Source: a virus
Virus record (IMG/VR): IMGVR_UViG_3300010885_049703
Coordinates: 1-64,000 of that record
Length of the DNA stretch: 64,000 nt
Direction: 5' to 3' (one strand)
Part shown: positions 3,237 through 30,632 of the stretch, piece by piece
Numbering within the stretch: position 1 is the first letter of the stretch
How the letters are laid out: each line of letters begins with the position of its first letter
Position numbers and translations under genes: made by a program
Notes under the pieces: generated by a model
Told to the model about the DNA's origin: nothing
What the model saw: only the letters and a program-made list of their open reading frames with translations
Database searches by the model: none

Positions 3237-3237
3237 G

Positions 3238-10337: not shown

Positions 10338-10712
10338 ATGACAACATTTATTGGCTACAACACCATCAATCAATACAAGAAGTTTACACTGGTAGATCAG
10401 GATCTCATCAAGCGCGATCTTCTCAATGCCTTTAACATACGCCAGGGTGAGCTGGTGGGCAGGCCTGCATATGGTAGTGCAATCTGGGATTTCTTATTTG
10501 AGCCACAGACACTTGAAACTGAAATCGCCATGAAAAGTGAAATACAACGTGTGGCTGGCGGCGATCCCAGACTCACAATAGCCAACATCTACACCTATCC
10601 GCAAGAAAATGGTATCTTAATTGAACTGCAAATACAAATAGTGTCCAGCTCCAACGCTGAAATACTCTCTATATTCTTTGATCAAGAAACCCGTAGAGCC
10701 AGTTACATATAA
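10338..10712 (+). CDS. gp25: baseplate wedge subunit gp25
   Basis: The 124-residue protein matches the gp25/lysozyme-like wedge family in length and motif: a D-L-L-N-A-F-N-I-R-Q-G-E stretch, then GRPAYGSAIWDFLFEP. In T4-like tails gp25 binds the gp6-gp7 core bundle and nucleates sheath assembly. Despite the family name it has no lysozyme activity. It is followed by 43 bases containing a CATAAATA motif, then gp6, matching the usual gp25-gp6 order. Confidence 0.85.
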   Translation: MTTFIGYNTINQYKKFTLVDQDLIKRDLLNAFNIRQGELVGRPAYGSAIWDFLFEPQTLETEIAMKSEIQRVAGGDPRLTIANIYTYPQENGILIELQIQIVSSSNAEILSIFFDQETRRASYI

Positions 10713-10755: not shown

Positions 10756-13700
10756 ATGGCTAAAACTACCAGACAAACAGTTATTTTTGGGGTCGAAGAC
10801 TGGAAACAGATCTATCAGACCTATCGCGAAGCTGACTTTCAAAGCTACGATTTTGAGACTCTACGCAAGAGTTTTGTAGACTACTTGCGTTTATACTATC
10901 CTGAAACTTTTAATGATTACATTGAAAGTTCAGAGTTCATTGCACTGCTAGATGTCATTGCTTTCATGGGACAATCGTTGGCTTTTAGAGCTGACTTAAA
11001 TGCCCGTGAAAACTACATGGACACAGCCGAGCGGCGTGATTCTGTCAATCGACTAGCCAGTTTGGTCAGCTACACTGCCAAACGTAATGCTGCAGCTCAA
11101 GGCTTGGTCAAAGTCACTGCAGTGTCTACCACAGAAAACATCACAGATTACAACGGTGTAGACCTAGCCAATATCACTGTGAACTGGAATGATCCCACGA
11201 ACACAGACTGGTTTGAACAGTTTACTTCTATCATCAATGCAGCGTTGATCAACAGTCAACGCTACGGTAATCCCGGAAACAAACAAACAATTATTGATGT
11301 TAGAACAGAAGAATACACCTTGAATTTAGTGCAAGGATACTTGCCAGTGATTCCTTACACTGCCACAGTGGACGGGGTCAACATGCCGTTTGAAGCAGTC
11401 AATGCCACATCTTCAGGCCGCACATATTTGTATGAACCTGCCCCGTTGCCCAATGGTGCGTTTAATATTTTATATCGCAATGATCAGTTGGGATTTGGAT
11501 CAAACAACACTGGATTTTTCTTTTTGTTCAAACAAGGATCGTTGCAGTCTGCAGATTTTAACTTGGCAGAAAAAGTCAGTAATCGTGTGGTTGCCATCAA
11601 CATTGATGGTATCAACAATGAAGACCGTTGGTTATTCCAACTTGATGATGTTGGAACAGTTCAGTCTGAATGGCTATACACTGAATCAGTGTACACGGCT
11701 GCTGCTGAACAAAGCACCACCGGCTTGCGTAAAATTTATTCAACACAAAGTCGCAGCAATGATCAAATTTCTTTGACTTTTGGCGATGGAGTATTCTCTG
11801 CTATTCCAGTGGGACTATTTCGCGCCTATGTTAGATCATCAAACGGTCTTGAATACATCATCAATCCTGAAGAAATGCAGAGCATTGTTCTACCAATCAG
11901 CTATGTGAGTCGCACTGGTAGAATTGAAACACTGACATTTACTGTAAATCTACAAACGCCAGTGAGCAATGCACAGTCGCGAGAATCCATTGATGAGATC
12001 AAGCAACGTGCTCCTGCTCGCTATTACACACAGAATCGTATGGTCAACGGTGAAGATTACAATCTGTTTCCGTTTACCCTGTACAACTCAATTATCAAAT
12101 CCAAGGCATTGGCTCGTAGCGCGATCGGAACATCGCGGTATCTTGAACTAGTTGACACCACTAACAAGTATGCCAGTACCAATGTGTTTGGCAGTGATGG
12201 CGGCCTCTACAAAGATAATACACTGCCTACATTCCAGTTTTCATGGTTTACCACCAACGATATATCTGACGCAGTCACAAATAAAGTTCAGCCAATTCTG
12301 CTAGAACCTGGTATGCTACAATTTTACTATGCTAATTTCATAAGGCCAAATCTTGCCACGTTGAATATTTCATGGAATCAAAGTACATCACTGACAAATT
12401 TATGCACTGGATATTTTAAAAATATTGCATCTCCGTTTGCCCCTTATCCAGTGGGCTCGTTTTCCAGCAGCAATACAAAGTACGTTGTGCCCAATGCTCT
12501 AGTAAAATTCATCCCACCAGACGGATATTATTTTGATCAATTCAATCATTTAGTTGCAGGTATACCCACCGCAGACACTGACAAACTTTTTATCTGGGCC
12601 ACAGTAACCGGTGTTATATTAGATGGCACTAATCAAGGCAAAGGAAATCTCACAGATGGGTCTGGCCCAATCGCTCTCAACAATTTTGTGCCAACTGGGG
12701 CTATTGCCACACAAGTTATACCATTGTTTTTGACGGATTTGCCTTCAACTATAGTTCAAACTATGATTGAATCAATTCGGTTGTATCGTAATTTTGGTCT
12801 TGGTTATAACAATCTGACTTCAACCTGGTATATAATCACTCAAACAAACCTCAATGCTGATGGAGCATTTAGTTTAGTCAATCAACAGAGCACTGCTGGT
12901 GTTTACGGTGACGCAAGCTGGCTAATCAAATTCATAACTGATGGCACACAATATTCTGTTACAGCACGTGAGTTGACATATTATTTTGCGTCAGTGCTGC
13001 AGACCCGATTCTTTTTTGAATCAGGTGCCAGCATTTATGATTCTCGCACAGGCACTGTAATCAAAGACTTTATTCGTGTATTAAAAACCAACAGTCAGCC
13101 TGCCAGCAATTCGCCCTTGTCCGGTGACACCACTATGCAAATTATTGGTCAGCCTGAACAGAGCGATGGGTATGTTGACGATTTCCAGGTCATTGTGAGC
13201 TTTCAGGACTCAGACGCTGATGGTGCAGCTGATAATCCAGATTTCTTTGAAGAAATAGTGGGACCAAATCCCACAGTGGGTCAAAGTGGATCATTGGTAT
13301 TCTTAGAAGCCACAGTGGACTTTGATAATTTACAGCGATACCTGTTGACTGAAAAAGGATATGTGAATTACCAATACGGAACTCTGTCAGAAATTACAGC
13401 AAATTCTGATCAATATCTTGATGGCCAAGTGTTTTACGCCTATAATGATCTGGCATTTTATGTATTGACTATTGCATTTGACGGAACTCGTTCGCTCACA
13501 CAATCTACTGAATTTCTAGCAAGAACGGGCCGACAGGATTTGTACTATCAGTATCGTCACAACAGTTTGTTGACTAATAGAATTGATCCTTCAATTACAA
13601 ATATTATTGATGTGTATGTCGTCACACAGAGTTACTACACTGCCTATCAAAACTGGATCAAAGATTCAACTGGCACTGTGGTTAAACCCGTGGTGCCCAC

Positions 13701-14172
13701 AATTGACGAACTCACTACAGAATTTCAAAAGTTACAAGATTACAAAATGATTTCAGATAATTTGATTTTAAACTCTGTGGTGTTTAAACCTTTGTTTGGA
13801 GCCAAAGCTTCAACTGAACTTCGTGCCACTATCAAAGTAATTAGAGCATCCAACAGCACTGCCAGTGTCAGTGAAATCAAGAATCTTGTTGTGGCCAGTC
13901 TCAACACGTATTTTACCATCGACAAGTGGGACTTTGGTGATACATTCTACTTCTCTGAGCTTGCAGCATATATCCATTCGCAGATCGGAACTATTGTAAG
14001 TTCTGTGGTATTGGTCCCAGTAAACCCACAAAAGAGTTTTGGTGATTTGTATGAAATTAGATCAGCACCAAATGAAATTTTTGTCAATGCCGCCACAGTG
14101 GCAAACATCGAAGTTATTGATGCATTGACAAGTACCAATATTAGAACAGCACCTGGCAGCGGAGTGATTTAA
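10756..14172 (+). CDS. gp6: baseplate wedge subunit gp6
   Basis: The 1138-residue protein begins with the conserved gp6 region: Y-x-D-F-E-T-L-R-K-S-F-V-D-Y-L-R at about 30-50, SSEFIALLDVIAFMGQSLAF at about 58-77, then RADLNARENYMDTAERRDSV. gp6 belongs to the gpJ-like baseplate superfamily and forms the dimeric ring that links the wedges. T4 gp6 is 660 residues, so this one is much enlarged. The extra length lies in the middle (about 400-900) and is rich in Thr, Ser, Asn and aromatic residues. Its stop overlaps the next start by one base (TAATG). Confidence 0.82.
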   Translation: MAKTTRQTVIFGVEDWKQIYQTYREADFQSYDFETLRKSFVDYLRLYYPETFNDYIESSEFIALLDVIAFMGQSLAFRADLNARENYMDTAERRDSVNRLASLVSYTAKRNAAAQGLVKVTAVSTTENITDYNGVDLANITVNWNDPTNTDWFEQFTSIINAALINSQRYGNPGNKQTIIDVRTEEYTLNLVQGYLPVIPYTATVDGVNMPFEAVNATSSGRTYLYEPAPLPNGAFNILYRNDQLGFGSNNTGFFFLFKQGSLQSADFNLAEKVSNRVVAINIDGINNEDRWLFQLDDVGTVQSEWLYTESVYTAAAEQSTTGLRKIYSTQSRSNDQISLTFGDGVFSAIPVGLFRAYVRSSNGLEYIINPEEMQSIVLPISYVSRTGRIETLTFTVNLQTPVSNAQSRESIDEIKQRAPARYYTQNRMVNGEDYNLFPFTLYNSIIKSKALARSAIGTSRYLELVDTTNKYASTNVFGSDGGLYKDNTLPTFQFSWFTTNDISDAVTNKVQPILLEPGMLQFYYANFIRPNLATLNISWNQSTSLTNLCTGYFKNIASPFAPYPVGSFSSSNTKYVVPNALVKFIPPDGYYFDQFNHLVAGIPTADTDKLFIWATVTGVILDGTNQGKGNLTDGSGPIALNNFVPTGAIATQVIPLFLTDLPSTIVQTMIESIRLYRNFGLGYNNLTSTWYIITQTNLNADGAFSLVNQQSTAGVYGDASWLIKFITDGTQYSVTARELTYYFASVLQTRFFFESGASIYDSRTGTVIKDFIRVLKTNSQPASNSPLSGDTTMQIIGQPEQSDGYVDDFQVIVSFQDSDADGAADNPDFFEEIVGPNPTVGQSGSLVFLEATVDFDNLQRYLLTEKGYVNYQYGTLSEITANSDQYLDGQVFYAYNDLAFYVLTIAFDGTRSLTQSTEFLARTGRQDLYYQYRHNSLLTNRIDPSITNIIDVYVVTQSYYTAYQNWIKDSTGTVVKPVVPTIDELTTEFQKLQDYKMISDNLILNSVVFKPLFGAKASTELRATIKVIRASNSTASVSEIKNLVVASLNTYFTIDKWDFGDTFYFSELAAYIHSQIGTIVSSVVLVPVNPQKSFGDLYEIRSAPNEIFVNAATVANIEVIDALTSTNIRTAPGSGVI

Positions 14173-17100
14173 TGGCACGAGTACGCACAGTAGAGTTTTT
14201 ACCTGAGATTTTTCAAACCTCAACTAACAGACAGTTTTTGGCCAGTACTCTTGACCAACTGGTACAAGAACCTTCATTTAAAAAAACCCAGGGATATATT
14301 GGTCGCAAGATTGGCCCGGGAATAAACCCCACTGATGCTGACTATGTGGTTGAACCCACAGCCGAGCGTGCCAACTATCAATTAGAGCCATCGGTTGTTT
14401 TCAAGTTACCTGACACAGACACTGTGTACGATACCATCACTTATCCGGGTATTACAGATGCATTGAAATTACAAGGCGCTGATGTTACACGCAGTGATCG
14501 ATTGTATGGCAGCCAATATTATGCATGGGATCCTTTTGTTGCCTATGACAAGTTGGTTAACTTTTCTGAATACTACTGGTTACCGTCGGGTCCACTGAGC
14601 GTTGCTGTCACCGGTGGCGTTATTCCCATAAGAAACACAATTGAAGTAACTCGTAATCCAGGATTTTATAGTTTCAGTGACGCTCAAGGGCAGAATCCTG
14701 TTATCACGTTGGTTCGTGGTGGCTCATACCAATTCAGTATTGCACAAAACAAAAAGAACACAGTCAATTATCGTGTAACGAATCAAGGCAACAAAGCCTA
14801 CATTATTGACTACCAGGCCAATCCGGCTATTACACTGGTACGTGGCAACACCTACATCTTTACATTAAGTATTGATGGCAATTACCCATTCTGGATTAAA
14901 ACAATTGCCAGTACCGGAGTAGTTAATGTTTACAGCACCGGAGTAACCAATAACGGTGCTTTTGATGGCACAGTTACTTTTACAGTGCCACAAAATGCAC
15001 CCAACACTCTGTACTATAGCAGTCAAACCAGCAGTCAGATGCAGGGTGTATTCAATATCATCAGCGGAGAGCCAGGCACTGGTCCAGGATTTTATATACA
15101 GGCGCAGCCCGGGGTCGATGGCAGTATGCCCACTACTCCAAATATTTCCAGCAGAGATGTGTTGGGAGTTGTCAACAACGGTGAAGATCTTGGTACAGTA
15201 ACATTTAATGTTCCATCAAAAACTGCACAGAACTTTTATTATAATTTAACGTCAATTGATTCTGTTGACTTGTTGAGTCAAATTAAATTCAATGAAATCA
15301 ACAATATCTATGTTGATGATTTTCTTGCTGCGTATCCCGCAGGTATTGATGGAGTAACTGATCTTGAAAATCGTACATTGGTGTTTGATATTCCTTCGTT
15401 GGAAGGCACAGGAATAGATGTTGATACCGCAATTGCCGGCGGATGGTTGCGTACTACTTTTTACAGTCCAGACTATGCGGCCGACCCTACCCCAGGGTAC
15501 AACGAAGAACCCTATGATTTAACCACAAGTATTGTTAGCCTAAACGAACGTTACAGCGTCTGGCAAATACAGTTTAATACCGACGACGACGGTGGGCAGT
15601 ACATGACATTGGCAGTCAAACAAGAAGTCAATGAGTTTGAAAAATTTAGAATCGTATTTGGTGTCCAATGGTCAAGTACTCAATGGTATCGCAGCGACAA
15701 CAGTTATTTTGAAAAAATACCACTGTTGACCGCAGTGCTAGATACCGTGTTCTATCAAGACAGTCTTGATCCAACATTAGTAGGTGAAATTAGATTAATT
15801 GATCCAACTGTAGAAACAACGCTTGACCTTGACACTATTATTGGTAAAAAACAATACACCAGTCCCAACGGAGTAAAATTTACCAATGGATTAATAGTAC
15901 AATTCCGCGGCAATGTAACGCCAGAATCCTATGCCAACAATGAATATTTTGTTGAAGGGGTCGGCGAAGCCATTGTGTTGGTACCAGTTACAGAGCTGGT
16001 TACTCCGGAAACTTATACTCAAAGTTTGTCGGTGAGTTTTGATGTTGTGCCATATGACATTGGCAACTACGATGTCAGTAATAATCAACCAATTGAACAA
16101 GACTACATCACAATTAATCGAGCCAGTACTGATAGAAATGCCTGGTCACGCAGCAACCGGTGGTTCCATAGGCAAGTGCTTGAAGAATCAGCCTCGTACA
16201 ATAATACCACACCACTATTGGATCTTGCTGCAAGAGCTCGCAGACCTATTCTTGAATTTCAAGCCGGAACAAAACTCTTTAATTCTGGAACAGCCGGTAA
16301 AAATCCAGTCAACATCATTGACTTTACGACATTAGACGCATTCAGCGATATCAATGGAGTCCTTAACACTTACATTATCAATGGGTATACATTGGTCAAC
16401 GGGTCACGGGTTATTTTTGCAGCTGATACTGATCCCAATGTTCGAAATAAAATCTACACAGTTGAGTTAATATCACCTGACACTGTTCTTCCTCTAATCG
16501 CCGAGCCCATCATTAATCTCACTGTGGCTGATGATGGCGATGTCAGTTATAACAATCAGACCGTATGCTTAAATGGATCCACACTGCAAGGTAAAAGTTT
16601 TTGGTTTGATGGTGTGACTTGGCAAGAAGCCCAGGAAAAAACCAGCACCAACCAATCTCCGTTATTTGATGTGCTGGTCAACGGACATAGTCTATCCGAC
16701 ACTGTGTATTTTGGTAGCAGCACATTTCGCGGTAGTAAACTATTTTCTTATGCTGTTGATTCAGCCAGTGTAGCGGATCCAATTTTAGGATTCCCACTAA
16801 AGTATCTAACAATTAACAATGTTGGAGATATTGTTTTTGACAATAATTTTTACACTGATACTTTTGTTTACGTAGAAAATCGAATAAGTTTAACTGAGCC
16901 AATTAGCCAAGGTTTTGTTTACCGTTACCTTGACCAAGTGGCTTATACTAGAAAAATTGGGTGGGCTACTGCACCATATCAAAATGCAACCTACCAACAA
17001 TTTCAATTTACCTACACTGGTCAACCACTGTTGTTGGATGTTCGGGTTCGTGATCAAATAATTGATCCCTATGTTCCTCAAACTTATCCAGTAATAAAAT

Positions 17101-20100
17101 TATATGCAGGGTCTAAGTTTCGAGACCCCGGCACCTACACTTACACACAAACCGAATTTACTACAATAATCAACGTTGATTCAACTATAGCACCAGGTGA
17201 AACTATTATTGTGTTGGCACTCAGTGATCAAGTTAGTTCTGTGGCATTTTATCAAGTGCCATCAAATCTTGAAAACAATGCGTTGAATCAAAATCCAAAC
17301 ACAGTGACCTTGGGCACTGTGCGCACTCACTATCAGACCATCTGTGAAAATTTAATTACTATTCAAGGCACTATCAACGGGTCAAACAACAGCAGAGACC
17401 TTGGATATATTGCGCCATATGGGTTAAACATTCTGCAACAAAGTTCTCCCTTGACATTGGCCGGATATTTTTTACGTGATCAAAATTATGAATTGTTCAC
17501 GGCATTGGATTTCAACACCAGAGAGTATACCAAATACAAAACTCAGCTGTTGGATCTTGTTGCTGCTAGAGATTGGGGATCACAGACTTCTGCACAAATC
17601 TTAACCAATGCAGTGGCTATATTAACTGCTGGGCGCACAGAATCAAGTCCATTCTATTGGTCAGATATGTTGCCAGCCCGTACAGTATATGCATCAACAA
17701 CATATACTCATACGCCTATCAGCACCAATTCTTTCAACACTTCAAGAGTGTATGATTTTAATTCAAGTAACTATTATGCAGTATTGGTGTATGTCAATGG
17801 TCGGTTACTGACTTTAAATTTTGAATACACTGTTGCTGTAGATGCACCTATAATTATAATCACCGCACCGTTGGAAGTTGGTGATGTGATTATTATTCAG
17901 GAATTTGATACTACTGTGGGCAATTATGTGCCCAATACGCCCACTAAGATGGGTTTATATCCTGCGTTTCGTCCACAGATTTATTTAGATACTACTTACG
18001 TTACTCCCACCACAGTGATTCAAGGGCACGATGGTAGTATAACTGTGGCATTTGATGACATTCGTGATGAAATTTTATTGGATTTTGAAACACGAATCTA
18101 CAATAATTTAAAAATTCACAGTGTTCTCCCTATCAGTGCAACTGAAATCATTCCTGGACAATTCCGTGTCACTGAATATAGTCAGAGTGAAGTCACTGAT
18201 ATTCTCAGTGCTGATTTCTTGACCTGGGTAGGATCCAACAAGTTAGATTACTCGGCACAACAGTACATTGCAACCAATCCTTGGACTTACAACTACAGTC
18301 AGAGTTCAAACAAATTAACTGGCGCACCTTTGTTAGGAGGCTGGAGAGGTATTTACGAATATTTCTACGATACAGATCGTCCCAATGAAGCACCGTGGGA
18401 AATGTTGGGATTTACCGAACAACCCATTTGGTGGGAAGATCGATATGGCGTAGCACCCTACACTTCAGGTAACTTGGTGTTGTGGGATGATTTGAGCCTA
18501 GGGCGTGTGGCTGATCCAGCCGGCGCATATATCTTGCCTCAATATGTTCGCCCAGGACTGACACAGGTATTACCAGTAGACGGTGAAGGTGCATTGATAC
18601 CTCCGCTGGAAAGCGTAGTTGGATTGTACTCTCGTACAACATTTCAGCGCAGTTGGAAAATTGGCGATGATGGTCCGGTTGAAAATGCCTGGAGAACCAG
18701 TTCAAGCTATCCATTTGCAATCATGCGATTGTTTGCGTTGACCAAGCCTGCTAAATTCTTTTCATTGTTGGTTGATCGTGATCTGTACAAATACGACACC
18801 GCATTCAATCAATATCTCTATAATGGCCGCTACCGAGTTGATGCCAACGCCATTGAGTTATACGGCAATGGTGTCAGCAAAGCCAGTTATATAAACTGGA
18901 TTGTTGACTACAACACCTATCTAGGAAATACTTCCACAACTGCAGTACTCAAACAAAATCTCAAAGGACTAGGGGTACAGTTGGCATATCGCATGGCTTC
19001 TTTCTCAGACAAACTATACATCAAAGTCTATACTGAAAAGCCCAGCCCCAACAGTTTAAACACCAGTTTGTTGCTGCCTGATGACAGCTATGATTTGTTC
19101 TTGTACAAAAATCAACCATCAGATGACATTGTCTATAGTTCAATAATTGTTCAACGTGTGCCCGATGGCTACAATGTATTTGGCTACGGCATATTACATC
19201 CGTACTTTGAAATTTTAATCAGCAAACCAACTGGGCCACGAGTTACAATTTCTGCCGGTAATACCACAGCCACAGTGCCGGTGACCTACAGCAATGATAT
19301 TGTACAAGTACCTTACGGGTATGTATTCACCAATGAAACTGCAGTATGTGATTTTATTCTCAGCTACGGTGCATTGATGTCAGCACGTGGTATGATTTTT
19401 GATGATGTAGAAAATGGACTAACTCTAAACTGGGCTCAGATGGCCCAAGAATTTTTGTACTGGAGTAATCAAGGATGGGGGCCAGGTAGTATCATAAATC
19501 TCAATCCCACTGCACAAACGCTGATGGTCACACGACCTGGCCTTATTGTTGATAGTATTGTGGAGCGTGGTGTACAGACTGTTCTTCAGGATCAAAATCG
19601 TCAACGGTTGGCGGTGCGTGATCTGGTAGTTGATCGGTACGATAATACTTTCAAGGTGACCAGCCAAACCGAACAGACTATCAATTATATTGATCTCAAA
19701 TTTACTGCCTACGAACACATTGTTGTTCTTAAAAATGTCAGTGTGTTTGGGGACTTGATTTACGATCCGGTCACTGCTGCTCGTCAGGGACGATTGCTGT
19801 TGGTAGCGGCCACAACCACTGACTGGAACGGGCAGCTTGATGCACAAGGGTTCATTCTCAATCAGAACAATATCAAGGAATGGCTGCCAGATGTCAAGTA
19901 TACCAAAGGCCAAATTGTTACTTTTAAAAACAATTACTACAGCGCAGCAACTATTGTAGAACCAAAAAATGAATTTGATTTCAATGATTGGTTAATCAGC
20001 GATTATACCAAGATTCAGAAAGGGTTACTGCCCAACTTAGCCAACAAAGCCAATCAAATCCAGCAAAGTTATAACACCATCAGTGCTAATCTTGAAAGAG

Positions 20101-23100
20101 ATCAAGACTTGTTGAGTTATGGACTTATTGGATTCCGGCCAAGACAATACATGACTGCACTGAATCTTGACGATGTCAGTCAGCTCAACGTATACAAACA
20201 GTTCCTGGGATCCAAAGGTACAAAATTCGCCATAGATTTATTTGGCAATGCAAGTTTTGGCAAAGAAGCAGCACAGTATACTGTCTATGAAAATTGGGCA
20301 ATATTAAAAGGGGTATATGGTGCTCAGGCCAATCGCAGTTTCTTTGATATTAGACTCAATCAGGCATTGCTGACCTCTAATCCTAGTACGGTGCAAATAA
20401 TACAACCTTTTGAGTTTTCACAAGCAGATCAAACAGTTACCTTGGACACACTGTGGAGAGAAAGCTACAAAATCACCAGCCCCAATGTTTTACCAACCAT
20501 CACCAAACAAGTAACAGATGTCAACTTGCCTAGTTCTGGTTATGTAAATCTCAATGACATTGATATCACAGTGTTTGATATCAACAATCCAGATGCAATA
20601 AATGCAGCACTATCTACAATTGGGGTCGGAACAACAATTTGGTTCGCAAAAATCAATGACTATGATTGGGGAGTATATCGTTGTTCTCATGTTCCAGGTG
20701 CTATTGTTGAAGTTGCAGATAATCTTGATGGTACCTCAATTGTTTTGTTCAATGAACAACATAATCTGGCAGTCAACGATCTTATTATTATTAAATTTTT
20801 CTCCACTAATATCAATGGTGTTTACAAGGTTTTTTCAGTACCATCAATAAACACCATTACCATCATCTATGAATTTGTTAATACTCCAGAAACCACTGTA
20901 CTTGGTGCAGGGGTTGGTCTTAAATTAGAAACTGCCAGAGTGGCTCAGGCCAGTGATATTAATGAGTTACCATATGTCAATGAAATGCAATCCGCCAGCC
21001 AGGTCTGGGTCGACGACATTGGTGACGGTCTTTGGTCTGTGTTGGAAAAAGAAAATCCCTGGACGTTCTCACAGTATATTTTGCCTATTCGATCAGCAAA
21101 TTCTAAATGGGCGTATGCCATTGCGCAGACTCAAAATAATAATATTTCTCTCATCTCTGCGCCGTTTTTAAGCACTGGAATAGTGTATCAATACAGTGTT
21201 AATTCAATTGGACTCTTCTCTGAAGGCTCCTTGTTGAGTTTGAATGCACCAGCAGTGTCTGGATATGGCTCTTCAATTACCATTGGTAATAATAGTTGGG
21301 GGGCAACTGGTGCTCCGACTAGTAATGACATTGGATACGCCAGTGTTTTATATTACAACGGTGAAACACAGTCTTTTGTAAATTCTCAATTGTTGTTGGC
21401 TCTTGATCAGCCGGGACCGGCAGAGTTTGGTTACAGCATGGCCATGAGCAGAAATGAGCGTTGGCTGTATATTGGTGCACCGGCAGTCAACGCAGTGTAT
21501 GCATATGGACAAGTTCCGGTGCCCGTGCAATATCTGACCTACAAAACCACAAGTCTCACCACTAGATTCAGTACAGTTGGGATCCAATATGACTATCCAG
21601 AACAGTTAGATGTCTATCTCAATGATACACCGCAGCGGTTAGGATTAAACTACACTGCTAGTTCGACTTTTATAACATTTGTTGACATTGTCAATGCAGA
21701 TGAAACTGTGACCATTTATCGTCGCACCAGAACTCAGCTTGATTTTAACCAGTACAATGATATCTCTCCCAATACATCAACAGGGGTAGGAACCGGCGCT
21801 ACATTTAATATTGATGTCACTCGTGGAATATATTCGGCTACTATACACACCAATGGAATAGACTACAGCCCGGGCGATGTTTTAACTATTTACGGTACGC
21901 AATTAGGTGGAGGAGTACCATCTGACAACTGTATAATCACAGTGGATGACGTGACATTTGCAGGGAATATTGCTGATTTTACTATCACAGGGTCAAGATC
22001 AGCGGCTCAAACAATATTCCCCATCAGCCAATATCTTTTTACTGCGCAAAATATCAATTCATTCACCGTAACGGTAAATGGTATCATACAGCGTCCTAAG
22101 ATTGATTATGAATGGGAAAAATCAGACAGTAGCCTCCCAGACAGCACGCTCAATGATTACGATCTAGTGTTTGTGACATCACCGGCGGCGGGTGCAGAGA
22201 TCTTTGTTGATGCTGCGACATATTATGCCTATGCCGGAAAAATAGCAGTCAGCGGATTGAATACTGATGCAAGATTTGGTCATTCTGTGGCCACCAATGC
22301 TGATGGTTCAGAGATATTGATTGGATGTCCACAAGAAAATTACAATGGAACATATAGAGCAGGCACTGCTTATGTGTTTAACAGAAGTATCCAGAGGTTC
22401 CAGGTTGATAGTGTGTATGTTGAAAATCCCATATTCTCTGTGAATAGTAATTTAGATTTTCCACCAGCAGTGACAGTCAATGAAGTATTTTTAAATAACA
22501 CCGCTCAGTGGGGCACCAACAGCACCAATACATTTACAGTGAGTTACCTTGGCGGCGGCTATACTGCTTCCACAGTGACGATCAATCAACCATTGAATAT
22601 TGGCAACACGGTTGAGATTGATACAAATCAATTTCAGCAAGTACAAAAAATTACGCCCGAGCAACCTGTAGAACGTGCTTATTTTGGTAAGAGCGTAATA
22701 TATGGATTATTTGACTGTGCCGTTGTAGCCGGGGCACCAGAAGACAGCTCAATATTGCCCCAGGCAGGTAGTGTACAGACTGACGTTAATCAAGCACGAT
22801 TATATGGAACAATAACCAGTACCGTGGCTTCTCCTGCACTCACAGCTGGGGCAACATTGCGTATCAACAATTACGAAGTTGCTGTACCAGCGTCGCCAAA
22901 TGATAATGTAACAGGACTGGTGGCAGCAATCAACGCCGCTGGCATTCCAAATGTTATAGCGGCAGTATCATCAGGGCTAGTGACCATTGATTTGATCAAT
23001 AAGTTAGCAGCAGTGCCGTATCAAAAATTACTGGTGTCTCCGGGAATGATCGGAACAGGAGTCAACAGTGTTTACAACGATCTGGGATTCACCAACTACG

Positions 23101-26100
23101 TGTATGCGCAGACTCTGGTTAATCCCTACATCAAAGATGGATCAAATTTTGGTGCATCGTTGTCTACTCAAGGTGTTGATCTTCTAGTTGGAGCTCCTTA
23201 TGGAACTCCACATATTATTGACACCTTTGATGGTGGCACAACATTCTTTGATGCAGGCAGCACTGTATTTTACACTGATATTTCACAGTGTGGCGCTGTT
23301 TATCAATTTGATTATCTACCATCGGCAGCCGAATCTGCACTTAATCCTGGTGCGTTTGTTTACGGGCAACAATTGTATTATAATGCATCAGAAACCAATG
23401 ACATGTTTGGCACAAGCATTGATTATACCGGCACATCATTGATGATAGGTGCACCGGGTACTGCATTTGACACAGTGGTTGATAATGGTGCCTTGGTTGC
23501 TTATAGAAATGCCAATCAAACTCAGGCCTGGACAACAAAACATTATCAGGCACCAGCAGTTAATATCTATGCCATTAACTCAGTTACACTGTATGATCGT
23601 TTACAAAGTGCAAAAACAGAATTTTTAGATTTCTTTGACCCGCTGCAAGGAAAGATTTTAGGCGCTGCTCGACAGAACATTGATCTTATTGCTGCAATTG
23701 ATCCGGCAAATTACAATGTTGGATTGGTCAACAATCAAGGAAATACCTGGGGAGCATCGCGAGTAGGAAAAATATGGTGGGATACCAGCACAGTGCGATT
23801 TGTTGATCCCGGGCAAGATGACATTGTCTATGCAAGTCGTCGGTGGGGACAGATCTTTCCCGGCAGCAGAGTAGATGTATATCAGTGGACTCAAAGTGAT
23901 GTTCCTCCAGCTGATTACACTGGTCCAGGAACCCCATATTCAATTACGAGATATTCAGTGGGATCGTTACTCAATAGTTCAGGTGCCTTTATCACCGAAT
24001 ATTTTTACTGGGTACGCAACATTCCATCGGTGAACACCGCAGCCAATAAAACGCTCAGTGCTGAGGTAATTGCACAGTATATTGCATCGCCAATTGCCAG
24101 TGGTATTCCTTTCATGGCGCCAGTGTCGCCAAGTTGCATTGCAATCTATAACAGCAATAGCTATTTAAATTCATATGATACTATAATTCATGTTGAATTT
24201 GATAGACAAATCAACGATGACAATGTTCATACTGAGTTTCAATTATTAGCACAAGGAAGAGCTGCAAGTTTCTTAACTCCTGCATTGTATAGAAAATTAC
24301 AAGATAGTTTTTGTGGGGTTGACCCGCAAGGGGGTGCAGTTCCAGATGTGTCCTTGAGTCCGGCAGAACGGTATGGAGTACAGTTCCGCCCCAGACAGTC
24401 AATGTTTGTAAATCGGTACCTTGCACTACAGAATTACATACAACATACTAATCTTATTTTAGCACAGTATCCAATAGCCGAAAGCCGGTCATTGACTCTG
24501 CTAAACAGCGAAGAGCCGATCCCCGCACAAGCCGGCAACTGGAACGAAGTGTTGGCCAATCTTGAAGAATTGAGCTGGCAAAACATTCAAATTGTACCAT
24601 TGGGATACAAGTATCTAATATTGAGCGACAGTAACAACAACGGTCTTTGGACAATATACACAGTAGAACTTGCAGCAACACTGTTGCGCCGCTTGATATT
24701 GACAAAAGTTCAAAGTTATGATACCAAGACCTATTGGAGTTATATTGACTGGTATTCTCCAGGATTCAATCGCACCAGTATTCCAAGTCAAGAAGTTCCA
24801 AGTTATGCTGCGCTGGTGGCGTTGAATGTTCCAGTGGGCACAGTTGTTTTGGTTACCAGCAACGGCGAAGGTAAATTTGAAATCTATCAACTTGATACAA
24901 CTGGCTGGAATAGAGTTGGTTTACAAGATGGCACTATTCAAATATCTGATGGCATTTGGAATTATGCCGAAGGTAAACTGGGGTTTGATGGTGAAGTGTT
25001 TGATGCACAGTATTTTGATCAAACACCGCAGACTGAAACTCGAAAAATCATTCAGAGCATCAATGAAGAATTGTTCATTGACGAATTACTGATTGAAAGA
25101 AATGACATCACTGTCTTGATGTTGAATTACATCTTGACCGAGCAGCTGGCACCTGAGTGGTTGACAAAAACCAGTTTGATTGATGTGGAACACAACATTC
25201 GAGAACTGTTACCTTACCCAACTTATAGACGAGACAATCAAGATTTTGTGTTGGACTATCTCAACGAAGTCAAGCCATATCATGTTCAGATTAGAGAATT
25301 TAATTTAAAATACAACGGCTTTGATAATTTTGCTGGAGATTTGGCAGACTTTGATTTGCCGGCTTACTATGATGCGGATATATCACCACCGCAATATGTC
25401 AGTCCAATTCTCACTGACAGTGAAATCGGACCCAGCGACCGTGCCGGCAACAATATTATCTGGCAGACAACACCGTATGATCAATGGTTTGACAATTACA
25501 AATTGTCAATTGAAGAAATTGTCATTGTTGATGGCGGAGCTGGATATACTTCCATCCCTACAGTAACCATCACCGGAACAGCAACCACACCGGCGACTGC
25601 ATACGCTCGCATTAATTCCGCTGGAGAAGTTGTTGCTGTTGTTCTTGCTACCCCAGGACTGGGATATCTGACCACAGCTATAGTCACTATCACCGGCGGT
25701 GATGGCACAGGTGCAAGGGCTGTAGCTTACATGGGCAACGGTCTTGTACGTAGTATTTCTACTACGATTAAATTTGACCGCTGCGAATATCAAACCAATA
25801 TATCAGAGTGGGAACCTAACATTACCTTTGACAACGGTCAGCTGGTAAGATACGATGCTAAAATTTGGGCAGCAAACAGTCCAGACAGTACCGGAGTCAA
25901 CACACCAACGTTTGATATAGAAGATTGGATCTTAGTTCCGATTAACGATCTCAGTGGTGTTGACCGTACCATGGGTTACTATGTTGCTGGGGTTAATTCC
26001 CCCGGACGAGAATTACCACTGTTGATTGATGGAATTGATTACCCAGGAGTACAGGTCCTTGGACTACCGCTGGAATACGATACTGGATTTGATCATGGCC

Positions 26101-28409
26101 CGTTTGATGTTACTCCTTGGGATAACTTAGACTTTGGTCCAGAAGGTCGTCCCACCTACAGTGATACTATGTTAAATGCACAGTATCAAAGTAGTTTCCT
26201 TGACATATATCTTGGCACACGCCCAGATGATGTCAACATTGACGGTGGAGCATTTGTTGACACCTATTCAAGTCATGCTCCTCAAGAGTTAGTACCTGGC
26301 CAGGAATTTGATACACTTGATTTCCGTGTATATACTCGGCCTGGATCTGATTGGAATGATCTTGGTCATGGATTCAACATCCTGGCACTGCGCAGTGAGT
26401 ACGATCCAGCAGCCCCGGTCATTTATTGGGGAGATGTTGGTGTAACACAAAATGTCAATGAACTAAACCCTGTAGGCCTGGACCTAAGCAACATTACTCA
26501 ACAAAGAGATTTGACCCTGGGAATAAATTACACAATAGATTGGGTCGAACAAACGGTCACTATTTTAAGTGGTGCAGTATTGAATGATGTATTAATTGTA
26601 GATGTCTATCAAATGGGCGGTGGAAACCAGCTGCTTAGGGCCAACTATAACGGAGCCAGCGTTGGCACATTACTTGAGATTGCAGTTAACTTCGACGAAA
26701 TTTATGAATTAGTTATCTTGGTCAACGGTGCAGAATTGACTGATGGAGTTGATTACATCTATGAAGGCATAGGATCAATAACACAAATTACGTTTTACGT
26801 AATTCTCACTGGCAGTGATGGTATAAGTCTAACTGTCATGGGCACTGAAACTCCAGAGCAGTACAGTTGGAGTAAGCCAGTGACTGAGTATATTACAGTG
26901 TTAGAAACCCCATCACTGGCCACGGCTATACTAACTTATCCTTTGGCAAATCCCATGATAGGGTCAAACAGTGACAACGCCTATGTCACTGTCAATGGAT
27001 TTATGGCCAGACCATCGCAGGGAATTGAATGGTATGGCGATGGATCTAGTGCAGAGTTTCTCATGCCAGTTCGTGGTGGCTACAGTCAGGGTCTTATTGC
27101 TGACAATGAAGTTCACGTCTATGTCAATGATGTTGAACAAATATTAGGCAGTCAATTTACCGTGGTTCCTTGGGACGGGTTCAGTGACAGAACAATTATA
27201 TTAAGCTATGTTCCGGCAGTTGGCGATCGAGTATTAATTTGTGTTAACACCCGAGCTGATTATATAATTTCATATGATGGAACAGAGTGGAATATTACAT
27301 TTAGACCATCAGGTTTATTTGGTATATTCCCCGGGGATATTGTTGCAGTGACCAGCTGGAACGACACCAGCCAACAAAATATTGTACAAAAAGTTTGGGT
27401 AAGTCCTCTTTCTACAGGTGGTACCAATACTGAAACATATGATACATATCCTTTTGATTTTGGAACAGTATCTGGTGACCCAGGCAGCTATGATTTCAGC
27501 GAAGGTATCATTGTCAATTACAATGATTTTAATCTGGATAGGGTTCAGCAAAATGCCAATCGTATGATTGTGACTTACAATGGGCGCAGACTCTTCAATG
27601 GCGCTGGGTTTACTGTGCAATACGATGATACTACGTCATATTTAATATTGCCATTTGTCATCAATGTGACAGATGTTGTTGTAGCTACACTGTTTACCAA
27701 TGATATAGTACCCGAGGCAATGGCTTTCAGGATATTCCAAGATATGCGGGGAACCCAGGCCACTTATAGAATTTTACCTAGCAGCGAAACTACGCTGGCG
27801 GAGAGTGTGCTTTATGATGATGATGTTATATATGTCAACGATGCGGGAAATCTGGGTGTACCTGACCCTGCAAAAAATATCTGGGGTGTAGTGACTATTG
27901 GAGGCGAGCGTGTGATGTATCGTTATAGAGATACAGTAACCAACTCTATATCAGGGTTGCTCAGAGGAACAGCCGGCACAGCAGCAGCATCACATCCAAG
28001 TGGAATCAAAGCCATTGCCATGGGGCGTGAAAGCATTCTTGAGCAAGGGTATGAAGATCAATTTGTGCATACAAATATCATGGCCAATGGGCAACAAACT
28101 GTATTCTCTGCACCCAATGTTGATTTATTAAATGTTGACAGCACTGAATACAGTGATGCTTTGAGAGTTTTGGTTGGCGGTATTCCTGTACCCCCGACCC
28201 AATACGTGTTGACATCGCCTAGCCCTGCAACTGTGACTTTCTATGATCCACCACAAAAAGGCGTACAAGTCACATTGGGAGTGCTGCAATCACAATCTTG
28301 GTACGGTATAAGGCTCTTTCCACCGGCACCCAGCAACGGTGTTCCATTGCAAAACACCCAAACTGCAGCAGCCAAGTTCTTACGTGGAGTACGGACGCAA
28401 TTGTTCTAA
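14172..28409 (+). CDS. giant 4,745-residue baseplate/tail structural protein
   Basis: A single uninterrupted frame of 14.2 kb occupies the place of gp7/gp8 after gp6. The N-terminus (MARVRTVEFLPEIFQTSTNR) resembles large structural proteins of other marine T4-like phages. Residues about 185-298 look like a cupredoxin-fold domain (GVTNNGAFDGTVTFTVP, then TLYYSSQ), but the expected His and Cys metal ligands are absent. Residues about 2360-3115 contain six FG-GAP-like repeats. Residues about 3790-3860 hold two Gly-x-Gly-Tyr strand repeats around VTITG. The C-terminus is YGIRLFPPAPSNGVP followed by a basic tail. It probably forms the outer baseplate or fibre-attachment structure. Its T4 equivalent cannot be assigned by eye. 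Confidence 0.72.
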   Translation: MARVRTVEFLPEIFQTSTNRQFLASTLDQLVQEPSFKKTQGYIGRKIGPGINPTDADYVVEPTAERANYQLEPSVVFKLPDTDTVYDTITYPGITDALKLQGADVTRSDRLYGSQYYAWDPFVAYDKLVNFSEYYWLPSGPLSVAVTGGVIPIRNTIEVTRNPGFYSFSDAQGQNPVITLVRGGSYQFSIAQNKKNTVNYRVTNQGNKAYIIDYQANPAITLVRGNTYIFTLSIDGNYPFWIKTIASTGVVNVYSTGVTNNGAFDGTVTFTVPQNAPNTLYYSSQTSSQMQGVFNIISGEPGTGPGFYIQAQPGVDGSMPTTPNISSRDVLGVVNNGEDLGTVTFNVPSKTAQNFYYNLTSIDSVDLLSQIKFNEINNIYVDDFLAAYPAGIDGVTDLENRTLVFDIPSLEGTGIDVDTAIAGGWLRTTFYSPDYAADPTPGYNEEPYDLTTSIVSLNERYSVWQIQFNTDDDGGQYMTLAVKQEVNEFEKFRIVFGVQWSSTQWYRSDNSYFEKIPLLTAVLDTVFYQDSLDPTLVGEIRLIDPTVETTLDLDTIIGKKQYTSPNGVKFTNGLIVQFRGNVTPESYANNEYFVEGVGEAIVLVPVTELVTPETYTQSLSVSFDVVPYDIGNYDVSNNQPIEQDYITINRASTDRNAWSRSNRWFHRQVLEESASYNNTTPLLDLAARARRPILEFQAGTKLFNSGTAGKNPVNIIDFTTLDAFSDINGVLNTYIINGYTLVNGSRVIFAADTDPNVRNKIYTVELISPDTVLPLIAEPIINLTVADDGDVSYNNQTVCLNGSTLQGKSFWFDGVTWQEAQEKTSTNQSPLFDVLVNGHSLSDTVYFGSSTFRGSKLFSYAVDSASVADPILGFPLKYLTINNVGDIVFDNNFYTDTFVYVENRISLTEPISQGFVYRYLDQVAYTRKIGWATAPYQNATYQQFQFTYTGQPLLLDVRVRDQIIDPYVPQTYPVIKLYAGSKFRDPGTYTYTQTEFTTIINVDSTIAPGETIIVLALSDQVSSVAFYQVPSNLENNALNQNPNTVTLGTVRTHYQTICENLITIQGTINGSNNSRDLGYIAPYGLNILQQSSPLTLAGYFLRDQNYELFTALDFNTREYTKYKTQLLDLVAARDWGSQTSAQILTNAVAILTAGRTESSPFYWSDMLPARTVYASTTYTHTPISTNSFNTSRVYDFNSSNYYAVLVYVNGRLLTLNFEYTVAVDAPIIIITAPLEVGDVIIIQEFDTTVGNYVPNTPTKMGLYPAFRPQIYLDTTYVTPTTVIQGHDGSITVAFDDIRDEILLDFETRIYNNLKIHSVLPISATEIIPGQFRVTEYSQSEVTDILSADFLTWVGSNKLDYSAQQYIATNPWTYNYSQSSNKLTGAPLLGGWRGIYEYFYDTDRPNEAPWEMLGFTEQPIWWEDRYGVAPYTSGNLVLWDDLSLGRVADPAGAYILPQYVRPGLTQVLPVDGEGALIPPLESVVGLYSRTTFQRSWKIGDDGPVENAWRTSSSYPFAIMRLFALTKPAKFFSLLVDRDLYKYDTAFNQYLYNGRYRVDANAIELYGNGVSKASYINWIVDYNTYLGNTSTTAVLKQNLKGLGVQLAYRMASFSDKLYIKVYTEKPSPNSLNTSLLLPDDSYDLFLYKNQPSDDIVYSSIIVQRVPDGYNVFGYGILHPYFEILISKPTGPRVTISAGNTTATVPVTYSNDIVQVPYGYVFTNETAVCDFILSYGALMSARGMIFDDVENGLTLNWAQMAQEFLYWSNQGWGPGSIINLNPTAQTLMVTRPGLIVDSIVERGVQTVLQDQNRQRLAVRDLVVDRYDNTFKVTSQTEQTINYIDLKFTAYEHIVVLKNVSVFGDLIYDPVTAARQGRLLLVAATTTDWNGQLDAQGFILNQNNIKEWLPDVKYTKGQIVTFKNNYYSAATIVEPKNEFDFNDWLISDYTKIQKGLLPNLANKANQIQQSYNTISANLERDQDLLSYGLIGFRPRQYMTALNLDDVSQLNVYKQFLGSKGTKFAIDLFGNASFGKEAAQYTVYENWAILKGVYGAQANRSFFDIRLNQALLTSNPSTVQIIQPFEFSQADQTVTLDTLWRESYKITSPNVLPTITKQVTDVNLPSSGYVNLNDIDITVFDINNPDAINAALSTIGVGTTIWFAKINDYDWGVYRCSHVPGAIVEVADNLDGTSIVLFNEQHNLAVNDLIIIKFFSTNINGVYKVFSVPSINTITIIYEFVNTPETTVLGAGVGLKLETARVAQASDINELPYVNEMQSASQVWVDDIGDGLWSVLEKENPWTFSQYILPIRSANSKWAYAIAQTQNNNISLISAPFLSTGIVYQYSVNSIGLFSEGSLLSLNAPAVSGYGSSITIGNNSWGATGAPTSNDIGYASVLYYNGETQSFVNSQLLLALDQPGPAEFGYSMAMSRNERWLYIGAPAVNAVYAYGQVPVPVQYLTYKTTSLTTRFSTVGIQYDYPEQLDVYLNDTPQRLGLNYTASSTFITFVDIVNADETVTIYRRTRTQLDFNQYNDISPNTSTGVGTGATFNIDVTRGIYSATIHTNGIDYSPGDVLTIYGTQLGGGVPSDNCIITVDDVTFAGNIADFTITGSRSAAQTIFPISQYLFTAQNINSFTVTVNGIIQRPKIDYEWEKSDSSLPDSTLNDYDLVFVTSPAAGAEIFVDAATYYAYAGKIAVSGLNTDARFGHSVATNADGSEILIGCPQENYNGTYRAGTAYVFNRSIQRFQVDSVYVENPIFSVNSNLDFPPAVTVNEVFLNNTAQWGTNSTNTFTVSYLGGGYTASTVTINQPLNIGNTVEIDTNQFQQVQKITPEQPVERAYFGKSVIYGLFDCAVVAGAPEDSSILPQAGSVQTDVNQARLYGTITSTVASPALTAGATLRINNYEVAVPASPNDNVTGLVAAINAAGIPNVIAAVSSGLVTIDLINKLAAVPYQKLLVSPGMIGTGVNSVYNDLGFTNYVYAQTLVNPYIKDGSNFGASLSTQGVDLLVGAPYGTPHIIDTFDGGTTFFDAGSTVFYTDISQCGAVYQFDYLPSAAESALNPGAFVYGQQLYYNASETNDMFGTSIDYTGTSLMIGAPGTAFDTVVDNGALVAYRNANQTQAWTTKHYQAPAVNIYAINSVTLYDRLQSAKTEFLDFFDPLQGKILGAARQNIDLIAAIDPANYNVGLVNNQGNTWGASRVGKIWWDTSTVRFVDPGQDDIVYASRRWGQIFPGSRVDVYQWTQSDVPPADYTGPGTPYSITRYSVGSLLNSSGAFITEYFYWVRNIPSVNTAANKTLSAEVIAQYIASPIASGIPFMAPVSPSCIAIYNSNSYLNSYDTIIHVEFDRQINDDNVHTEFQLLAQGRAASFLTPALYRKLQDSFCGVDPQGGAVPDVSLSPAERYGVQFRPRQSMFVNRYLALQNYIQHTNLILAQYPIAESRSLTLLNSEEPIPAQAGNWNEVLANLEELSWQNIQIVPLGYKYLILSDSNNNGLWTIYTVELAATLLRRLILTKVQSYDTKTYWSYIDWYSPGFNRTSIPSQEVPSYAALVALNVPVGTVVLVTSNGEGKFEIYQLDTTGWNRVGLQDGTIQISDGIWNYAEGKLGFDGEVFDAQYFDQTPQTETRKIIQSINEELFIDELLIERNDITVLMLNYILTEQLAPEWLTKTSLIDVEHNIRELLPYPTYRRDNQDFVLDYLNEVKPYHVQIREFNLKYNGFDNFAGDLADFDLPAYYDADISPPQYVSPILTDSEIGPSDRAGNNIIWQTTPYDQWFDNYKLSIEEIVIVDGGAGYTSIPTVTITGTATTPATAYARINSAGEVVAVVLATPGLGYLTTAIVTITGGDGTGARAVAYMGNGLVRSISTTIKFDRCEYQTNISEWEPNITFDNGQLVRYDAKIWAANSPDSTGVNTPTFDIEDWILVPINDLSGVDRTMGYYVAGVNSPGRELPLLIDGIDYPGVQVLGLPLEYDTGFDHGPFDVTPWDNLDFGPEGRPTYSDTMLNAQYQSSFLDIYLGTRPDDVNIDGGAFVDTYSSHAPQELVPGQEFDTLDFRVYTRPGSDWNDLGHGFNILALRSEYDPAAPVIYWGDVGVTQNVNELNPVGLDLSNITQQRDLTLGINYTIDWVEQTVTILSGAVLNDVLIVDVYQMGGGNQLLRANYNGASVGTLLEIAVNFDEIYELVILVNGAELTDGVDYIYEGIGSITQITFYVILTGSDGISLTVMGTETPEQYSWSKPVTEYITVLETPSLATAILTYPLANPMIGSNSDNAYVTVNGFMARPSQGIEWYGDGSSAEFLMPVRGGYSQGLIADNEVHVYVNDVEQILGSQFTVVPWDGFSDRTIILSYVPAVGDRVLICVNTRADYIISYDGTEWNITFRPSGLFGIFPGDIVAVTSWNDTSQQNIVQKVWVSPLSTGGTNTETYDTYPFDFGTVSGDPGSYDFSEGIIVNYNDFNLDRVQQNANRMIVTYNGRRLFNGAGFTVQYDDTTSYLILPFVINVTDVVVATLFTNDIVPEAMAFRIFQDMRGTQATYRILPSSETTLAESVLYDDDVIYVNDAGNLGVPDPAKNIWGVVTIGGERVMYRYRDTVTNSISGLLRGTAGTAAASHPSGIKAIAMGRESILEQGYEDQFVHTNIMANGQQTVFSAPNVDLLNVDSTEYSDALRVLVGGIPVPPTQYVLTSPSPATVTFYDPPQKGVQVTLGVLQSQSWYGIRLFPPAPSNGVPLQNTQTAAAKFLRGVRTQLF
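21258..23508 (+). repeat. FG-GAP-like (beta-propeller) repeat region inside the giant gene
   Basis: Six in-frame blocks share the pattern F-G-x-S-(x)n-(L/I)-x-I-G-A-P. Examples are FGYSMAMSRNERWLYIGAP, FGHSVATNADGSEILIGCP, FGASLSTQGVDLLVGAP and FGTSIDYTGTSLMIGAP, with a fifth block reading YFGKSV and AGAP. A degenerate first block is GYGSSITIG with TGAP. Such repeats form the blades of integrin-alpha-type beta-propellers, so this part may be a ligand-binding propeller on the baseplate. Confidence 0.65.
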
Positions 28410-29240: not shown

Positions 29241-30632
29241 ATGGCTTATCAGATTAACTTAACTGACGGTACCCCGTTTGCAACCATTGCAGATGGTACT
29301 ATCAATACATCAACCAACATGATACTTGTTGGTAAAAACTACGCAGGTTACGGTGAGTTTCTTGACGGCAACTTCATTCACTTGCTGGAAAATGCTTCCA
29401 GTGTCACTGCTCCGGGAAACCCACTCACTGGGCAACTGTGGTGGGACAAAGGCAGTAATCTATTAAAAGTCTATAACGGAACTAGTTTTAAAACTATTTC
29501 AGCTGCCACTGCTTCAAGTACCGCACCTACCAGCAACGTTACCGGTGACTTATGGTATGATATTCCCAATCAGCAATTAAATGTTTACAATGGTACAGCA
29601 TTTATTCTAGTTGGCCCTCAAAGCAGTGCAGGTACAGGCACAACTGGTGCTATTCCGGCATTGGTCACTGATACTCCAGCTGGTATCACGCATACAATTA
29701 TTAAACTCACAGTTGCTGACACAGTTGTTGGTACAGTATCACAAGATGCTGAGTTTACGCCATCTGGTGCTGGAATTCCAGGATTCACAACAATTAAACC
29801 TGGTATTACATTGGCCAGCACTGTTGGTGGACAAGTGCCATTATTTCAAGGTACTGCTGCTAGTGCAGTATTACTAAACGGGGTTGCTTCTACAGGATTT
29901 ATACGTACAAGTGGGGTGGGACAGACTATGTCTGTGTCGTTGGGAATTCTGAACAACACCGGACTGACAGTTGGATCTAACAGCGATTTAAAAGCCTCAG
30001 TTGTTGGTACAACGGCCACAATACAAAATCAAACCCAAGACGGTAATGTCAATTTCGCAGTCAATGATGGTGGCGTGACTACTACTGTCATGACTCTTGA
30101 TGGTGCCAATGGTTCAGTTAATTTTGGCGCCACAACATCAGTGACACTGGCAGGCATTACCAAAAGTGGAGCAAATGCCAACGGTAATATTGGATCAACT
30201 TCAAATTATTTTAATCGTGTGTTTGCCACTGCTACCACAGCATTGTATGCTGACGTTGCAGAACGCTTTGCAGCTGATACAGAATATGCACCAGGCACAG
30301 TGGTTGAGCTAGGTGGCATCAATGAAATTACCTGTGCGCTGAATGATCTGTCAGATAATGTGTTTGGTGTGATAAGTACCCGAGCAGCATTCTTAATGAA
30401 TGGTGGCGCAGGAGAAGACGATACTCACCCCCCAGTGGCAATGACAGGGCGTGTTCCAGTGCGGTGTGTTGGCGCAGTCAAAAAAGGCGATCGTCTAGTT
30501 TCAGCAGGTAATGGACTGGCACGATCAGCACTGCCAGGCGAAGCAACTGCCTTCAATGTTATTGGCCGGTCCCTTGTAGATAAAACAGATTTAAATGAAG
30601 ATATGGTAGAAGCCATAGTAACTATTAAGTAA
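29241..30632 (+). CDS. tail-fibre-like structural protein
   Basis: The 463-residue product has repeated LWWDKGSNLLKVYNGTSFK and LWYDIPNQQLNVYNGTAF units at about residues 70-130. That pattern is common in phage fibres and collar proteins. A beta-rich middle (150-310) follows. The C-terminal domain (about 320-463) starts TTALYADVAERFAADTEYAP and contains FGVISTRAAFLMNGG and GRVPVRCVGAVKKGDRL. Similar C-terminal domains end many fibre proteins and may fold, chaperone or process the trimer. It is probably a host-recognition or baseplate-edge fibre. The start has AAGGACAGG upstream and candidate late promoters. Confidence 0.62.
   Translation: MAYQINLTDGTPFATIADGTINTSTNMILVGKNYAGYGEFLDGNFIHLLENASSVTAPGNPLTGQLWWDKGSNLLKVYNGTSFKTISAATASSTAPTSNVTGDLWYDIPNQQLNVYNGTAFILVGPQSSAGTGTTGAIPALVTDTPAGITHTIIKLTVADTVVGTVSQDAEFTPSGAGIPGFTTIKPGITLASTVGGQVPLFQGTAASAVLLNGVASTGFIRTSGVGQTMSVSLGILNNTGLTVGSNSDLKASVVGTTATIQNQTQDGNVNFAVNDGGVTTTVMTLDGANGSVNFGATTSVTLAGITKSGANANGNIGSTSNYFNRVFATATTALYADVAERFAADTEYAPGTVVELGGINEITCALNDLSDNVFGVISTRAAFLMNGGAGEDDTHPPVAMTGRVPVRCVGAVKKGDRLVSAGNGLARSALPGEATAFNVIGRSLVDKTDLNEDMVEAIVTIK

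Follow-up and report, generated by a model that had tools for sequence, protein, structure and literature searches.

A giant protein of a phage baseplate-wedge operon combines a conserved scaffold with clade-specific modules

The giant gene and its operon

The window studied here (the whole stretch of DNA that was analyzed, 64,000 nucleotides, positions 1 to 64,000 of IMG/VR record IMGVR_UViG_3300010885_049703) sits in a 114-kb viral record that is probably incomplete. It carries a baseplate-wedge operon with the gene order gp53-like, gp5-like (hub), gp25-like, gp6-like, and giant, the last three of which are as follows.

10338..10712, + strand: gp25-like baseplate wedge gene (phrog_43, E 1.6e-11)
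10756..14172, + strand: gp6-like baseplate wedge gene, directly upstream of the giant (phrog_10646, E 1e-284; phrog_219, E 1e-22)
14172..28409, + strand: giant gene, 4745 aa (ORF call; phrog_10938, E 9e-299)

The gp6-like product matches the T4 gp6 profile over 312 columns in a profile-profile comparison (E 1.7e-5), and the last base of its stop codon overlaps the ATG of the giant. The placement after gp6 that the earlier note had claimed is therefore borne out. A Pfam search of the window's record returned no match to a tail sheath, a result that says no more than that the record is incomplete or the sheath diverged.

From its ATG, the giant frame (14.2 kb) runs without a single internal stop and encodes a protein of 524 kDa; the probability of so long a frame at the composition of the window is about -127 in log10 units. 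Compared with near relatives, the whole chain has a dN/dS of 0.07 (L003) and 0.08 (L008), and values range from 0.02 to 0.16 in each part tested, inserts included. The single 14.2-kb frame described in the earlier note is thus a real, selected protein-coding gene under strong purifying selection. Its size is, as stated there, very great for a tail protein of a phage; the family, however, is already known, though unstudied, as profile search places the giant in PHROG_10938.

The same arrangement, a gp6-like wedge gene and then a giant, occurs in PA5oct (giant of 3857 aa), RaK2 (3326 aa), CBB (3340 aa), Atu_ph07 (4449 aa), and Phosso (4555 aa). A large unnamed gene occupies the gp6 slot before the giant in Munch (3342), Vibrio 2.275 (3771), and SCTP-2 (3807). 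In Salicola phage SCTP-2 (L017 4633-13923), the gene in this slot is itself a giant of 3096 aa, so the neighbor of the giant family can be enlarged too.

Members of this family have been found in virions. PA5oct gp355 is annotated as detected in the virion by ESI-MS/MS. Virion mass spectrometry (MS) of phAPEC6 recovered 17 unique peptides of gp245 (381.9 kDa; 7.6% coverage) and 21 peptides of gp244, the wedge protein beside it (24.2% coverage) (PMC7247149). A DNA search confirms that the phAPEC6 genome carries a giant homologue, which we take to be gp245, judging by size and by position behind the wedge gene. CBB_236, which adjoins the wedge protein CBB_237, was detected with 21 peptides (7.7% coverage) (PMC5259590). 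Both papers name the giant only as a structural or hypothetical protein (PMC7247149, PMC5259590). The giant gives fewer peptides per kDa than the gp6-like protein, which would be consistent with a lower copy number, such counts not being quantitative. The detection of same-slot homologues in virions and the location beside gp6 in a wedge operon support the earlier assignment as a tail or baseplate protein.

Other genes of the window are of separate interest. A 463-aa protein encoded at 29241-30632 (+) has a weak match to Peptidase_G2 (autoproteolytic chaperone) and a tail-fiber PHROG match, and is perhaps a tail fiber or spike whose C-terminal chaperone is self-cleaving. Beside the baseplate genes, a cluster at 36801-43161 (+) and 45604-47085 (+) encodes two or more radical-SAM proteins, of which one carries a SPASM domain, as well as a Nol-like carbamoyltransferase. 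On the other strand, at 59005-60285 (-), lies a gene for a protein with DUF2201 putative metallopeptidase and VWA-like domains.

Conserved scaffold and inserted modules

We aligned 16 giant proteins, eight of them from distant isolates. A family-wide scaffold comprises residues 1-150, 600-1880, 1950-2175, and 3150-3790, with weaker conservation to about residue 4300; over residues 1-150, identity to the distant isolates is 27 to 35%.

14172..14621, + strand: N-terminal scaffold, residues 1-150 (in 15/15 compared homologues; phrog_10938)
15969..19811, + strand: scaffold core, residues 600-1880 (alignment; AlphaFold2 model of 1000-2195)
20019..20696, + strand: scaffold, residues 1950-2175, region of the KGT...E.WA motif (alignment)
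23619..25541, + strand: C-terminal scaffold, residues 3150-3790 (alignment; AlphaFold2 model of 3120-4310)

The AlphaFold2 model of residues 1000-2195 has a mean pLDDT of 75 (about 90 over roughly 1100-1550) and a pTM of 0.65. It has no PDB fold match at E <= 0.001, and its significant matches in a viral structure library are large uncharacterized or structural phage proteins, including the Atu_ph07 homologue. Residues 3120-4310 were modeled with a pLDDT of 72 and a pTM of 0.36, so that the domains are usable and their arrangement is not; the one PDB fold match at E <= 0.001 is CBA120 TSP4-N (E 1.4e-4). Searching the PDB with the whole giant sequence gave no match, and profiles of two conserved stretches gave, apart from one weak match to a tailspike, CBM-like matches at chance level only.

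Into this scaffold, modules specific to the clade have been inserted. The following features were mapped along the chain.

14664..14759, + strand: outer cupredoxin-like domain, first part, residues about 165-196 (continuous in relatives without the nested copy)
14760..15062, + strand: nested cupredoxin-like domain, residues about 197-297 (49% identity to PSSM2_028; degenerate copper site)
15063..15287, + strand: outer cupredoxin-like domain, second part, residues about 298-372 (sequence comparison with relatives)
17781..17900, + strand: putative beta docking module 1, residues 1204-1243 (HMM E 3e-13)
19878..20051, + strand: CBM5/12-like insert, residues about 1903-1960 (Pfam CBM_5_12 E 0.011, below cut-off)
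21093..23507, + strand: putative seven-bladed FG-GAP propeller, residues 2308-3112 (Pfam FG-GAP_2 E 4e-15 on the region; repeat HMM)
21603..21719, + strand: putative beta docking module 2, between blades 3 and 4 (HMM E 2e-8)
22059..22208, + strand: putative beta docking module 3, between blades 3 and 4 (HMM E 2e-11)
25503..25727, + strand: Gly-rich strand repeat, residues 3778-3852 (phrog_460 and phrog_1922 matches)
26511..26606, + strand: putative beta docking module 4, residues 4114-4145 (HMM E 6e-4)
26706..26837, + strand: putative beta docking module 5, residues 4179-4222 (HMM E 3e-6)
27108..27245, + strand: putative beta docking module 6, residues 4313-4358 (HMM E 3e-13)
27561..27689, + strand: putative beta docking module 7, residues 4464-4506 (HMM E 4e-6)
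28161..28277, + strand: putative beta docking module 8, residues 4664-4702 (HMM E 2e-5)

Residues 165-372 hold a cupredoxin-like domain that harbors a second one at 197-297. The outer domain occurs alone in relatives such as L125, whose outer domain the inner copy resembles (E 7e-13). The nested copy is present in 36 family members, with one gain and one loss on the tree, read by eye. At the ligand positions, P-SSM2 PSSM2_028 has His, Cys, His, and Met, whereas the window has Tyr, Ser, Ser, and Met (GHPF...YICQYHSAM versus GNYPF...SSQTSSQM, with His, Cys, and His lost); none of the 36 nested copies has the full copper ligand set. Since the ligands are lost, an enzymatic or redox role is unlikely, and we read the pair as structural. 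The cupredoxin-like domain without visible metal ligands of the earlier note is thus confirmed in kind, but it consists of two domains, one nested in the other.

Judging from the repeats, residues 2308-3112 probably fold as a seven-bladed propeller, with blades near residues 2315, 2363, 2417, 2700, 2836, 2991, and 3077 (repeat HMM). The propeller first described was credited with six repeats; the propeller stands (FG-GAP_2 E 4e-13 in the initial search of the giant), but the repeats number seven, two of them degenerate. These two, the first of the series, score E 0.9 and 0.3 in the window and are clear in L006, L083, and L119. With the repeat HMM, four to eight FG-GAP units were found in all examined environmental relatives and none in the eight isolates. 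Atu_ph07 and Phosso seemed to align over the propeller, but this was dismissed because the same HMM found zero units there. The CBM5/12-like stretch, which is a gap in the isolates' part of the alignment, matches chitin-binding domains and Milano phage baseplate chains locally in the fold search. Strand-rich Gly repeats, also claimed previously, are recovered around residues 3778-3852 by PHROG matches. The functions attached to these PHROGs ("head closure Hc2" and "tail lysozyme") were rejected, as the matches covered the short Gly-rich repeat only.

The eight small "VNG...DYT" beta modules detected by HMM are absent from the earlier note. Their profile matches seven PDB sequences at E < 1e-3, all of them phage tail or tail-fiber proteins, and it matches residues 295-329 of CBA120 TSP4 (PDB 7REJ) at E 2e-4; module 7 aligns weakly with T4 gp10 337-391 (hhalign, E about 0.001). 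In CBA120 TSP4, other spikes are docked by XD2 and XD3, whose fold recurs in XD2/XD3 of T4 gp10, which bind gp11 and gp12 (PMC8825819). The profile matches suggest that the modules of the giant are related to docking modules of phage tail-fiber proteins (CBA120 TSP4 and, weakly, T4 gp10), the resemblance to gp10 being at the level of the module only. Such modules are common in tail fibers, which counts against the wedge-scaffold reading given below. The module HMM did not find them in PA5oct, RaK2, or Atu_ph07, and docking through them would therefore be clade specific.

This inventory bears on whether the giant is instead a fiber or whisker adhesin, a flexible chain on the baseplate or tail with domains that bind host surface polymers. 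Propellers, CBM5/12-like domains, and tail-fiber beta modules all occur in adhesins and fibers, the close homologues of the cupredoxin-like domain are cyanophage tail-fiber-like proteins, and RaK2-type phages bear fibers and whiskers (PMC5259590). However, about 2,500 scaffold residues are conserved across clades with very different hosts, unlike fast-changing receptor binders, and the model of the core is confident, mixed alpha/beta, and nonfibrous. Moreover, the long fibers of RaK2 are gp526-gp534, which are encoded elsewhere, as determined by immunogold (PMC10253068). We consider an adhesin unlikely.

Family distribution and gene fission

The first third of the giant matches up to 97 phage isolate records, among which cyanophage records are similar through the cupredoxin-like domain only. 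In IMG/VR, we examined 88 loci (9 close loci and 79 more from about 600 matching stretches). The giant is one complete ORF of 4199 to 5337 aa in 64 of the 88, and nearly all of the remaining loci are cut by a contig end. Wherever the contig extends far enough, a gp6-like ORF lies directly upstream, with the sole exception of L064.

Two of the examined loci, L112 and L127, have a split giant. In L127/L130-L132, the gene is in two parts, of 3652 aa and 1014 aa, with the border at residue ~3615 of the window's protein.

25014..25016, + strand: position of the split in relatives L127/L130-L132, residue about 3615 (conserved stop/RBS/ATG)

The stop, a purine-rich ribosome-binding site, and the second ATG are kept in L127, L131, and the 76%-identical L132. 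The fission looks derived, because L127 groups with unsplit relatives on the tree. The three-piece split of L112 (7824-18980), in which residues are missing at the joints, was discounted as probably due to damage in assembly or sequencing, or as a decayed copy. A split of the gene in relatives had been named in the earlier note as a point against its reading. One lineage does have such a split, a clean fission late in the chain, but the 64 intact ORFs show fusion to be the norm.

The natural fission at residue ~3615 is also what might favor a polyprotein, or separate cleaved or split products acting as several ordinary baseplate subunits. The coverage of homologues by MS (7.6 to 7.7%) is too low for those data to speak against processing. 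However, the intact single ORFs span the family and nothing was found that points to a cleavage site, and we regard this scenario as highly improbable.

Relationship to T4 wedge proteins and inferred role

Many segments of the giant were compared by hhalign with profiles of T4 gp53, gp6, gp7, gp8, gp9, gp10, and gp11, and only the weak gp10 module matches resulted; for gp8, there was no profile-profile match. The Pfam gp8 profile (PF09215) recognized the T4 control (E 2e-199) but none of 16 records with a giant. For the gp9/gp10 N-terminal domain (PF07880), there was no match in the window's record, PA5oct, RaK2, or Atu_ph07, and four IMG/VR records matched marginally. Matches to gp53, an established component of the wedge, are themselves only marginal in giant-bearing records, and the gp8 and gp9/10 profiles are narrow, so these Pfam negatives carry limited weight.

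The giant could in principle be a true descendant of T4 gp7 whose core was split by huge inserts. It has the same position after gp6, and its N-terminal helix marginally matches the gp6 N terminus (E 0.013). The KGT...E.WA region also recalls gp7/gpI-type wedge motifs, which is a lead only. However, the best profile-profile match to gp7 (24 T4-like sequences) has an E of 0.06, compared to 1.7e-5 for the gp6 control, and gp7 is not named among the best 50 PDB fold matches of the folded parts (1000-2195 and 3120-4310). Descent from gp7 is quite improbable, and homology to gp7 or gp8, which the earlier note had named among the genes possibly replaced, was not borne out. Its further suggestion, that the giant replaces gp10-like network genes, gains partial backing from the TSP4-type modules, the weak gp10 match, and the lack of a recognizable gp8 in the 16 records and of a gp9/10 N-terminal match in the window's record.

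We consider it probable that the giant is a peripheral baseplate-wedge scaffold and fiber-docking platform of a jumbo myophage of the RaK2/PA5oct/Atu_ph07 type. Against a baseplate protein counts the filing of phrog_10938 by PHROG under "head and packaging." As a wedge scaffold, the giant, probably in one copy per wedge, would pack its conserved N-terminal and core parts against the inner wedge ring of gp6 and gp25. The propeller, the cupredoxin-like pair, the CBM-like patch, and the beta modules, as outer parts, would form the rim of the baseplate, anchoring tail fibers or spikes there and perhaps contacting host glycans. When fibers bind, the rim could move and pass this movement inward to gp6, triggering sheath contraction. 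In this way, the giant would do work that is shared in T4 among gp7, gp8, and gp10, descent from gp7 or gp8 being undetectable.

A possible but doubtful extension is that the core (about 1090-1890) represents a novel wedge architecture that unites the work of T4 gp7, gp8, and gp10 in a single chain. The core is predicted confidently, has no significant match among solved structures, and in viral predicted structures matches mainly its own family. Under such an architecture, baseplate complexity would grow by nesting domains within one gene, not by adding genes.

Neither size nor position is novel by itself, given an established family with proven virion members. The novelty lies in how the window's clade has enlarged and nested its domains and in the steps of that history, together with the natural split point and the connection to spike-docking modules; an open-access keyword search found no published description of any of these. 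We likewise found no solved structure of the wedge in jumbo-phage baseplates of the RaK2/PA5oct/Atu_ph07 type, and the largest protein of their wedge operon is listed as hypothetical or assigned to "head and packaging." The comparison yields a testable domain map, with stepwise, nested domain insertion traceable on the tree, and the split point at residue ~3615 is useful for expression. If one chain does replace several T4 wedge genes, this would reveal a second way to a complex contractile-tail baseplate.

Among known systems, T4 gp7 and gp8 share with the giant a neighboring operon position, whereas sequence or fold homology to them was not detected. CBA120 TSP4-N and, by a weak match only, T4 gp10 XD2/XD3 appear to carry the same kind of small beta module as the giant, which differs in having eight copies along one chain, no sign of a trimer, no spike domain, and no full-length relation to either protein. 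The cyanophage tail-fiber-like protein PSSM2_028 of P-SSM2 contains a cupredoxin-like domain 49% identical to the nested copy and keeps the His, Cys, His, Met set that the family's nested copies lack. The isolate giants are without the nested cupredoxin-like pair, and their sequences gave no FG-GAP repeats or beta modules with the HMMs built here. The closest counterparts are RaK2 ORF070, PA5oct gp355, CBB_236, and Atu_ph07 gp180, which occupy the same slot after gp6 and are homologous to the giant over its N terminus, core, and C-terminal scaffold, those of RaK2, CBB, and PA5oct being 900 to 1,400 aa shorter.
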